Part shown: piece after piece, positions 2,581 through 8,439 of the stretch | Position numbering within the stretch: the stretch's first letter is position 1 | How the letters are laid out: each line of letters opens with the position of its first letter | Source of the DNA: Alphaproteobacteria bacterium | Lineage (GTDB): Bacteria > Pseudomonadota > Alphaproteobacteria > Puniceispirillales > Puniceispirillaceae | Reading direction: 5' to 3' | NCBI GenBank assembly: GCA_016779005.1 | Contig: JADHOL010000003.1 | Span: 1-64,000 of the forward strand | Length of the DNA: 64,000 nt | Position numbers and translations under genes: made by a program | Notes under the pieces: generated by a model | Told to the model about the DNA's origin: nothing | What the model saw: the letters and a program-made list of their open reading frames with translations, nothing else | Databases searched by the model: none

Positions 2581-2583
2581 TAG

Positions 2584-2765
2584 AATGATGGAAGTTACTA
2601 CCAAATCTTTTGGACTTTACTCTTCAATAATTAGAGGGATTTAAACCTTATATTCAAATTTGGCACTAAACCAGTCTGTTTATGGAATTGTTCAGAGAGT
2701 ATTCTCATTCCTAACTCCTGGTCGGACTTACGAACAATAACCAATCATAAAAGCGAAGAAGACAA
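2584..2765 (-). pseudogene. Decayed 3'-end copy of the polymerase-like gene at 3340-4641
   Basis: This stretch aligns base for base, with a few gaps, to about 3280-3457, which is the last 120 or so coding bases of the polymerase-like gene plus its downstream flank. Translated on the minus strand it still reads VRKSDQELGMRILSEQF and then a stop at 2631-2633, matching VRKSDQELAMRILSEQF of the intact gene. A one-base deletion falls just after the motif-C tyrosine-aspartate. It directly follows the regulator stop codon. The two copies are direct repeats about 0.7 kb apart and enclose the small gene at 2876-3217. Confidence 0.85.
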
Positions 2766-2875: not shown

Positions 2876-3217
2876 CTATTCGTGTTCCCCACCGTTACCT
2901 CTTCCCAATCCACCAAAGTAATTTGGTTTTCTCTTGGCGGTCTCAAACGTGCCAAAGGTTATAAAAACTCCAGCTATCACTAAAGCATGTGCAATAGCAC
3001 TTATTTGAAATACTAAAATAGAGCCGACTGACATACTAAAGATAATACACCACATCCATGCAAGAACCTGCATAACAAGGTGTCTAGTGTTCACATCTGC
3101 AATATTCGAGAGGGGGTTTCGAGTACTGTTCATAATCATATTATATATATTCTTTATCATTGTAATGTTTCCTTCCATGATAACTATATACGAAGATTTA
3201 TGCCGAAGAGATTTCAC
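2876..3217 (-). CDS. Small two-helix membrane protein, unknown function
   Basis: Up to 113 residues. The likely start is an internal Met, MEGNITMIKN or MIKNIYNM, because the first residues are basic and unlike the rest. Two hydrophobic segments follow (about 46-66 and 70-90), then a basic, glycine-rich tail. The block RHLVMQVLAWMWCIIFS looks conserved in character, with paired aromatic residues at the membrane edge. I do not recognise a named family. It lies between the two copies of the polymerase 3' end and on the same strand, so it may be cargo of the element. The tail ends GGEHE. Confidence 0.6.
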   Translation of the reverse strand: MKSLRHKSSYIVIMEGNITMIKNIYNMIMNSTRNPLSNIADVNTRHLVMQVLAWMWCIIFSMSVGSILVFQISAIAHALVIAGVFITFGTFETAKRKPNYFGGLGRGNGGEHE

Positions 3218-3339
3218 ATAAGTCTTAGCAGAGTAGTAACTTGGGATGCAGTGGGCGACAGCACAGAGGGTCTGTTCGTCTATAATGGAACAAGTTACTA
3301 TTATATCTTTTGAACTTTACGCTCCAATAAGTAGGGGGT

Positions 3340-4641
3340 TTAAAACCCTTTCTTCAACTTTGGTACTAATCCTGTTTGTTTATAGAACTGCTCAGAGAGT
3401 ATTCTCATTGCTAACTCTTGGTCAGACTTACGCACAATAACGCAATCATATACAGGTAACGCTGGAGCGTTATGCACACTCATTAGTTCCAAAATAGTGC
3501 CAATTACGATTTCACTTTCCAAGTACATTAGTTTTGACCAACCAATGTCTTCTAAAGGTAAATCAGCCATAAAAGGGAAATACTCCAGCACCACTTTTTC
3601 GACCTTCCTTGCAGTCATCCAAGGCTTGTACTCAGGACATTTCTCCTTAATTTCTCGAAGCGACTTTGGCAGCCATTGCCTTGGAAACCTTCCAAGACCA
3701 AAACTTATGGCAAACCACATCTTAACAACTTCTCTTGGTATATTCCCGATGGCATATATATCTTCTCTAGTAGGAAGGGGTTGTTGTTTTATGCCATGCA
3801 TTATCGATATGTAAGTAGCATTAATGTCTACCTCCACAACATCCTCTCCATCTATCTTAATTAACTTACGCTTATCTTTATTCATTCGTATATAACCACC
3901 ACCATCGGCATGATTAAGACGACCACCTCTATCAAAGTTAAAGTTAGGAGCATCACCTTCATTAAATATACGCCTTAACCCTCCAAACGACATAGCCTCA
4001 TAAGTAAAAGAGGATAGGAACTGGTTTATTAATAAAACCTGCCACTCCAATTCTTTGTATTGCCTAGTTTCGGGCACTTTCATCTTCTTGCCTTTAAGTT
4101 TGCCTTTGGATGCCTTGCGTACCTCGATTACCTTTCTTGGAAGATGGGTGATAAAATGCTCGTGGATTGTGTCTTTTGTTATCCCGTTATCTTCAGCTAA
4201 CTGGATGAGTGCGTCGGTAGGTCTAAATCGAGTTGCTCGACCAGGGGCGAATGTCTCTTCTTGACCTTCTTCCCAAGTAAAAGGTCTATGGTTGCGACCT
4301 AACACAACCTCAATAAGACTTTGTTTTTCCATTAGGCTCTTGGTTATCTTGAAGTTGTCATACCCGACAGGGGCTTCGGAGAAAGCAGCTGCAGATAATC
4401 CATGGTAAGACCATCTGTTCTCTTCTTGCTCAAATCCAAGCAATAAGTCTCCTAAGATAAGACCAACTGCCTCTCTAAATGCCTTTTCATCATTAGCTTT
4501 TCGTTTGCGCTTTCGCTTTTCTATAGATTGTATTAAGTCTAATACTGATGATGTTAATTGTAGGGCATCGTTAGTAGTTGGTGGGGAGCTAAAGGTCATG
4601 TATCTTGCCTCTAGAATTTCCTTAAATTCTAACATAGACAC
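3340..4641 (-). CDS. Mobile-element protein with a polymerase-A-like palm (putative)
   Basis: A 433-residue protein. The C-terminal half carries three ordered motifs like those of family A polymerases. Motif A is EVDINATYI with Asp272. A motif-B-like helix is REVVKMWFAISFG with Arg303 and Lys307 at the R-x3-K spacing of Pol I. Motif C is LPVYDCVIV with Asp399 in place of the usual His-Asp. The helix before motif C (LESEIVIGTI) also fits. I know related proteins only as unannotated genes in bacterial mobile elements. The N-terminal 200 residues are charged and unrecognised, with no exonuclease motifs. The listed start is GTG; ATG at 4635 is possible. Polymerase activity is inference, and the fold assignment is moderately supported. 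Confidence 0.6.
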   Translation of the reverse strand: MSMLEFKEILEARYMTFSSPPTTNDALQLTSSVLDLIQSIEKRKRKRKANDEKAFREAVGLILGDLLLGFEQEENRWSYHGLSAAAFSEAPVGYDNFKITKSLMEKQSLIEVVLGRNHRPFTWEEGQEETFAPGRATRFRPTDALIQLAEDNGITKDTIHEHFITHLPRKVIEVRKASKGKLKGKKMKVPETRQYKELEWQVLLINQFLSSFTYEAMSFGGLRRIFNEGDAPNFNFDRGGRLNHADGGGYIRMNKDKRKLIKIDGEDVVEVDINATYISIMHGIKQQPLPTREDIYAIGNIPREVVKMWFAISFGLGRFPRQWLPKSLREIKEKCPEYKPWMTARKVEKVVLEYFPFMADLPLEDIGWSKLMYLESEIVIGTILELMSVHNAPALPVYDCVIVRKSDQELAMRILSEQFYKQTGLVPKLKKGF

Positions 4642-4739
4642 TCAGTCCTTACGCTTTCTAGCATGCTCCGGTCTACCTATAGGCATAGCTCTACTTTGGT
4701 GTTATCCACTACATCTACTACTAATATCTATAACTATAG

Positions 4740-4831
4740 TTCCTTAAGATACGATGGAGACACTTAGGCAACAATATGTCTAAAGTTACTTAAGATACTA
4801 TGGAGATACTTAGGCAACAATATGTCTAAAG
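4740..4831. repeat. Two tandem 46-bp direct repeats (iteron-like)
   Basis: 4740-4785 and 4786-4831 are head-to-tail copies that differ at only three positions. They lie about 100 bases upstream of the polymerase-like gene and directly downstream of a small membrane-peptide gene. Tandem repeats of this size next to a replication-type gene resemble iterons or an operator array, but two copies are few for an origin. Role unknown. Confidence 0.8.
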
Positions 4832-5022: not shown

Positions 5023-5144
5023 GTCTCGTTTTTATGAAGTTCCCATACTACTTATAACCAACTTTGGCATAAGTCTTGCCTTAGTAAAGGATATTATTCT
5101 CCAGTGACGTACTTTTGACGTTACGCATAATCCTCCCTAGACTT

Positions 5145-5172
5145 TAGACCACCTTCGGGTGGTCTATTTTTA
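5145..5172. terminator. Rho-independent terminator, possibly bidirectional
   Basis: A perfect 9-bp stem (5145-5153 with 5158-5166) closes a TTCG tetraloop and is followed on the plus strand by TTTTTAT. On the minus strand it is followed by AAAG, so plus-strand termination is better supported. It separates the polymerase-like unit from the small genes beginning at 5294. Confidence 0.8.
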
Positions 5173-5177
5173 TGTCG

Positions 5178-5214
5178 TTGAAGTTGTTGTCGTTACCTAA
5201 GGTAAGACAACTTC
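5178..5214. repeat. Imperfect palindrome containing the right copy of the direct repeat at 7-24
   Basis: Outer arms GAAGTTGT (5180-5187) and ACAACTTC (5207-5214) pair perfectly. Inner arms TTACCT and AGGTAA pair around one base. The left part repeats the sequence at 7-24 in the same orientation. It may be a recombinase core or an operator for the gene at 5294. No recombinase gene is visible in the window. Confidence 0.35.
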
Positions 5215-6435: not shown

Positions 6436-6495
6436 TGTCAAACCCTTCCATTGGTCTTTTTATCTCCTACGATACTGCTCACAACCACTACTTTA

Positions 6496-6631
6496 GACAA
6501 CCCCAAATAAGACTCACCAGCGCCTCTTGCGACCCTCTTCAGCACTCCTTCATATCTTCACCCTCTAACAAACTCTCAGCGACTCTGTATGAGTCAGCAA
6601 TCAGCATTCTAAAACCTTTTCACGACAACAT
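6496..6631 (-). repeat. 136-bp dispersed repeat, right copy (inverted relative to 111-246)
   Basis: Same length as the left copy, in opposite orientation, with the GACTC-5nt-GAGTC hairpin kept. The best-conserved block is 6496-6525. Read on the minus strand it contains a 22-codon frame beginning MLIADSYRVAESLLEGEDMK. The left copy shares the first residues but stops earlier, so the shared DNA rather than the peptide may be what is conserved. Confidence 0.75.
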
Positions 6632-8346: not shown

Positions 8347-8439
8347 AACCAACTAAGTTCTTTAGCTTCAGACTGCTGCGGAGATGAAAAGCCAAACTGT
8401 CCTATTTTAGACGCGTTATCTTGTACAATATACGATTAA
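8347..8439 (+). pseudogene. C-terminal remnant of a second CueR-like MerR regulator
   Basis: The frame reads NQLSSLASDCCGDEKPNCPI and then LDALS before a stop at 8437-8439. This lines up with the tail of the intact regulator at 2182-2580 (LASACKGDDRPDCPI then LEALS), including both metal-loop cysteines. No helix-turn-helix or start codon lies upstream, only the tail of the unrelated 7980-8297 gene region. It is a truncated copy, divergent enough to be a paralogue or an older acquisition rather than a recent duplicate. Confidence 0.8.

Follow-up and report, generated by a model that had tools for sequence, protein, structure and literature searches.

What does a 431-residue protein without a match among Pfam and NCBIfam models do in a marine alphaproteobacterium, and does its gene belong to a mobile element? 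The gene in question is located on the minus strand at positions 3340–4641 of a 64-kb stretch of DNA (referred to below as the window), in a genome of 1.97 Mb and 48 contigs whose close relatives among the named genomes are marine Alphaproteobacteria of the SAR116 cluster. An initial annotation, made from the letters of the sequence alone, had recognised in its product the motifs of a divergent family A polymerase and had suggested that the gene, together with adjacent tandem repeats and a duplicated 3' end, may form the replication or transfer core of an undescribed element.

Gene and protein family

As listed, the reading frame comprises 433 codons with a GTG start at 4641; an in-frame ATG at 4635 is the likelier start codon and yields an intact gene for a protein of 431 amino acids. 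Residues are numbered here from this ATG, so that Asp272, Arg303, Lys307, Phe314-Gly315 and Tyr-Asp399 of the initial annotation correspond to D270, R301, K305, F312-G313 and Y396-D397. None of the Pfam and NCBIfam models matched the protein, and this includes the Pfam model of family A DNA polymerases (DNA_pol_A, PF00476); the PF00476 match in the window's genome comes from a separate housekeeping polA gene (978 aa) on contig C18. The protein was matched by the profile of phrog_4756 (E 9.3e-22, residues 91–310 plus a second stretch), a family of phage proteins of unknown function, for whose members the entry describes neither a function nor a structure nor the kind of element that carries them. 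It is a direct member of this family and possesses the same motifs as the phage members.

Homologues were detected in approximately 32 of the 385 sampled alphaproteobacterial genomes (~8%), in 12 of 61 genomes of the bacterial family to which the window belongs, where some of the best matches are fragmentary or partial, and in 25 of 398 genomes of a phylum sample, nearly all of these being Alphaproteobacteria. The genome counts are slight overcounts, as at least one weak match (G273) is an ordinary Pol I gene.

Predicted fold and catalytic motifs

With the AlphaFold2 model of the window protein (pLDDT 83.4, pTM 0.69) as a Foldseek query, the best 50 matches in the PDB were all family A DNA polymerases, 39 of them with E ≤ 0.001 and the best with 1.8e-5. 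A phage homologue, 18% identical to the window protein, was modelled as well; its top-ranking matches were again Pol I, apPol and Pol theta (best E 3.7e-6), with single-subunit RNA polymerases ranking below. It should be noted that both alignments have sequences in common, so that these predictions are independent only in part. Fold searching with both models thus agrees with what had been proposed from the motifs, and a model devoid of a right-hand palm, which would have spoken against it, was not obtained. In the predicted secondary structure a strand terminates in D270 and gives way to a helix, and D397 occupies a hairpin turn, as in Pol I. The best match in BFVD was a protein of Rheinheimera phage Barba31A annotated as DNA polymerase (E 2e-20). 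Global TM-scores were low (~0.3) in both fold searches, which we put down to the domains surrounding the palm, and an hhalign comparison with Pol I was weak (E 0.027, probability 1.8%), with the register right for motifs 1 and A. The polymerase assignment is therefore based on fold and residue conservation and not on overall sequence similarity.

The polymerase domain (residues ~191–431; 3340–4065, minus strand) harbours motif 1 (G237-G238-R239), motif A with D270 in the context VDINATYI (approximately 3805–3831), motif B with R301 and K305, and motif C with Y396-D397 in LPVYDCVIV (approximately 3433–3459), motifs A and C being placed by alignment with Pol I and by conservation. The alignment reference was a genuine Pol I that the phrog_4756 profile itself matches (E 2e-4). 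Against it, the members have GGR for TGR in motif 1, followed downstream by a Q in most of them, DINATY for DYSQIE in motif A, R...K......FG for R...K.......YG in motif B, and PVYD for QVHD in motif C. The motif set therefore aligns with a genuine Pol I in the family A order that the initial annotation had read from it. Seven residues (N204, G238, R239, R256, D270, K305 and D397) are invariant among 34 diverse homologues, and R301 is Arg in 32 of the 34; since they are conserved across this alignment, the motif residues of the window protein are not there by chance. The Tyr previously noted for the usual His of motif C is indeed present in the window copy and is atypical of the family, position 396 being His in 32 of 34 sequences and Tyr in the window copy alone.

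The family accordingly has the fold of family A (Pol I) polymerases, with an invariant pair of catalytic Asp residues and an invariant motif B Lys. It resembles Pol I/Klenow, apPol and Pol theta (PF00476) in the palm and in the order of motif 1 (GR), the motif A Asp, the R...K of motif B and the (H)D of motif C, but differs from them in its size of ~430 aa, a reduced thumb, the absence of recognisable exonuclease domains and an added probable winged helix. The canonical Pol I signature is also absent: motif C reads YDC in the window protein and HDS in most members instead of HDE, the O-helix Tyr is replaced, and His or Tyr takes the place of the steric-gate Glu.

Some of these replacements bear on the type of polymerase. 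The residue after the motif C Asp is Glu in Pol I and Ser in T7-type RNA polymerases, while the steric-gate residue is bulky in DNA polymerases (Glu in Pol I) and Gly in T7-type RNA polymerases. An enzyme akin to single-subunit RNA polymerases, acting in transcription or priming of the element, would account for the HDS of most members (Ser after the Asp in 28 of 34, Cys in three, including the window protein) and for the RNA polymerases among the lower-ranking fold matches. However, DNA polymerases come first in both fold searches, the steric gate of motif A is mostly bulky (His in 25, Tyr in three and Phe in one of 34) where T7-type enzymes have Gly, and a promoter-recognition domain of the T7 type is not evident. 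We consider such an enzyme very improbable, and lean towards a DNA polymerase.

The N-terminal region (residues ~1–168; 4130–4635, minus strand) is a probable DNA-binding domain. Its AlphaFold2 secondary structure elements, together with a weak match to the winged-helix protein eS25 (E 0.16), which was the sole match in a profile search against PDB sequences, suggest that the first ~165 residues probably form a winged helix. This domain probably takes the place of the exonuclease as well as of the greater part of the thumb, and the predicted protein would then be a compact one, with a winged helix directly joined to a reduced palm-and-fingers domain.

Association with small tRNA-integrated elements

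A tyrosine integrase was found in 18 of 25 homologue loci and in none of 19 control stretches placed at arbitrary offsets in the same genomes (Fisher p 5e-7, with an integrase profile built from the homologue loci). In most homologue loci the integrase adjoins a tRNA gene, and 12 elements of 6.4–13.9 kb could be delimited by direct repeats of 17–55 nt of the tRNA 3' end, of which the repeats of 44–55 nt (L074, L101, L103 and L104) are more secure than those of 17–20 nt. The wider family is thus associated with small tRNA-integrated elements, and the earlier suspicion of an uncharacterised family in mobile elements proved well founded. One tRNA-Gly(gcc) site, beside the same chromosomal genes, hosts elements in three bacterial families (L088, L101 and L104).

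Besides the polymerase and the integrase, the only recurrent genes were those of resolvases (8 loci) and of RNase HI (3 loci, none of the 19 controls), the latter adjoining the polymerase gene in all three (L103, L109 and L110). Defence-like genes are present in some elements, where PADLOC was applied to the proteins of neighbouring genes, namely type III restriction-modification (L101), an OLD/Gabija-like ATPase (L100), cytosine methyltransferases (L109 and L003) and a MORN-trypsin protein (L107). One explanation of this company is that the protein is an active polymerase serving defence or counter-defence, for example by making a DNA product when phage infection is sensed, and its occurrence as an accessory gene in phages (see below) would be in keeping with that. 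Yet the polymerase and integrase persist where the defence cargo varies between elements, so that the polymerase behaves as part of the core (in loci that were chosen for the polymerase), and a plasmid-borne copy is accompanied by RepA and ParA-like genes. We therefore regard a defence function as unlikely.

In their general organisation the elements are similar to P4-like satellites, PICIs and other small tRNA-integrated islands, with which they share a size of 6–14 kb, termination in direct repeats and a tyrosine integrase located at the 3' end of a tRNA, as well as a small HTH protein in a few cases and defence-like cargo in some. In contrast to these known islands, which carry a primase-helicase or Rep, they carry the PolA-like protein, and no packaging genes were seen among the element proteins covered by a non-exhaustive check. 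Conserved iterons were not found in the family; repeats occur upstream of the gene in 13 of 34 loci and in 27 of 95 control stretches, which is no clear enrichment.

Family members on plasmids and in phages

Searched against plasmid records, the window protein matched one distant Sphingomonas record only, and other family members occur in only a handful of the 72,556 records. Contig G165:C14 (loci L182 and L183) is apparently a small circular plasmid, its unit of ~8.9 kb having been assembled as 2.4 laps with 99.9% identity; the alternative is a true tandem array. It encodes the family member along with RepA_C, a ParA-like protein, a resolvase and a Dam-like methylase, and because this plasmid possesses its own RepA, the family protein is not in every case the initiator. 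Variable 108-bp repeats within a Sel1-like gene differ among the laps.

No phage record was matched by the window protein itself. Members of the family are present in 46 phage records, mostly of Vibrio and Aeromonas phages larger than 110 kb, several of which encode two or three members per genome, and among the matches listed all are annotated as hypothetical. In the three genomes inspected, the members are situated among accessory genes, and another PolA-type gene is present in each (sub-threshold in one of the three), so the small protein is added to the replicative enzyme and does not substitute for it.

These contexts would also suit a repair or gap-filling polymerase, acting after conjugative or viral entry of a mobile element and having no origin-binding role: the protein is compact, it is an accessory in phages with their own polymerase, and its plasmid copy lies beside a separate RepA. 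Against this, the conserved, probable winged helix at the N-terminus suggests recognition of a site, and tyrosine recombination produces no gaps that would need filling. A role of this kind appears to us as improbable as one in defence.

Proposed role in element replication

On balance, and with no great margin of confidence, we favour the reading that the family is an element-borne family A DNA polymerase that serves the replication of its own element; its polymerase activity, its substrate, the origin and the element's need for it are what we infer from the fold, the conserved residues and the association with elements. Excision by the integrase would yield a circular element, whose origin the winged helix would bind or mark; from a short primer, perhaps an RNase H-trimmed transcript, the palm would begin DNA synthesis, and the host replisome would take over thereafter. 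At ColE1 origins host Pol I extends a transcript trimmed by RNase H. The likeness to ColE1-type initiation concerns the proposed logic only, with RNase HI encoded in three elements; the polymerase would here be supplied by the element.

Several observations count against a replicative polymerase: the replacement of the Pol I Glu after the motif C Asp by Ser or Cys and of the O-helix Tyr, the carriage of the gene by large phages as an accessory beside their own polymerase, the RepA of the plasmid, the lack of conserved iterons, the motif C Tyr of the window copy and its missing integrase, as well as the weak hhalign result and the low global TM-scores. A stronger version, in which an origin-recognising winged helix and a minimal family A polymerase within ~430 residues would make up a one-protein replication system that both sets the site and starts DNA synthesis in widespread tRNA-integrated elements, is speculative and in our estimate rather unlikely. 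We know of no description of such a one-protein strategy in integrative elements or satellites.

Polymerases of this fold are already known, and so are islands integrated in tRNA genes; what may be new is that the two occur together and that a probable winged helix is fused to the polymerase. Neither the family nor this combination was found described in the literature covered, which comprised neither bioRxiv preprints nor most subscription journals. If the replicative role is correct, an uncharacterised family present in ~8% of the alphaproteobacterial genomes sampled, and also in large marine phages, would constitute a minimal polymerase of family A devoted to small mobile islands. The copying of many small tRNA-integrated islands that lack a known Rep or primase would thereby be explained, such islands could be found by using the family as a marker, and structural and biochemical work would gain a compact exonuclease-free polymerase.

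The window copy and its island

The nearest relative of the window protein is 60% identical to it, and the comparison of the two genes (dN/dS ~0.16; dN 0.30, dS 1.89) indicates purifying selection in this pair. In the tree, the window protein falls in a SAR116 group that is itself embedded among proteins of Alphaproteobacteria, most of them encoded on elements. The 64-kb window was found to contain no tRNA gene, and an integrase was found neither there nor in the 10 kb that follow; as position 1 is also the first base of the contig, the left side is unseen, and the integrase and tRNA-end repeats typical of the elements are missing around the gene on the visible side. Of the initial proposal of a replication or transfer core, then, the part that holds is that the family is borne by mobile elements, whereas the window copy itself does not lie in a recognisable intact one.

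Whatever the family does, the window copy may be a non-functional remnant. Its motif C Tyr is unique, integrase and tRNA are not found nearby, a truncated 3' copy adjoins it, and broken copies are frequent in relatives; on the other hand, the reading frame is full-length, all other catalytic residues are retained, and the dN/dS ratio is low. We consider loss of function possible but doubtful, and the best reading is that of a descendant that has been left stranded without an integrase and may be specialised or in decay.

The accessory nature of the surroundings, as initially described, is supported by mosaic synteny among relatives: modules consisting of cytochrome c/DUF4396/MerR genes, of a small hydrophobic protein of 113 aa and of the polymerase are rearranged in sister genomes. 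The gene for the hydrophobic protein (2876–3217, minus strand) lies between the polymerase gene and its 3' fragment and recurs near members or fragments in SAR116 genomes. Positions 471–2580 encode a hypothetical protein, cytochrome c, DUF4396 and a MerR regulator, a module that looks like metal-response cargo; its last three genes are kept at 78–90% next to a polymerase fragment in G037 C35.

The two repeat features that had been invoked as parts of a replication or transfer machinery do exist, but a role in it is not borne out for either. The tandem repeat is small, with 2.1 copies of a 46-nt unit at 4734–4831 upstream of the gene, and is not conserved in relatives; as candidate iterons such repeats were rejected, given their similar frequency in loci and controls. 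The duplicated 3' end of the gene is a truncated copy (2581–2749, minus strand) comprising the last ~33 codons and 3' flank, 3281–3441 being repeated at 2581–2741 with 81% identity. It belongs to a recurring pattern: four SAR116 genomes have truncated polymerase 3' ends, and others have copies with internal deletions. The same island contains a 3' remnant of a MerR-type gene (8350–8414, 74% like the intact 3' end at 2491–2555), and the polymerase duplication is for this reason read as suggesting general island turnover; it may also have a role as an attachment site. Several of the 3' fragments start near the motif C codons and others elsewhere, so a common origin by site-specific insertion is at most a possibility.

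Members of the window subfamily are found near contig ends in most of G037 C60, G056 C15, G013 C16, G012 C6, G010 C29 and the window contig, as expected of repeated sequence in draft assemblies. An Rfam search of the island gave nothing beyond a sub-threshold match to the suhB/mmgR sRNA at 5116–5180 (27.5 bits, gathering score 41). By sequence comparison, the island is enclosed by an inverted repeat of ~125 nt (84%), with its left arm at 124–247 and its right arm at 6495–6619; a further partial copy of this repeat is present at C10:23787, and a related one at the contig end of the relative G037 C60.
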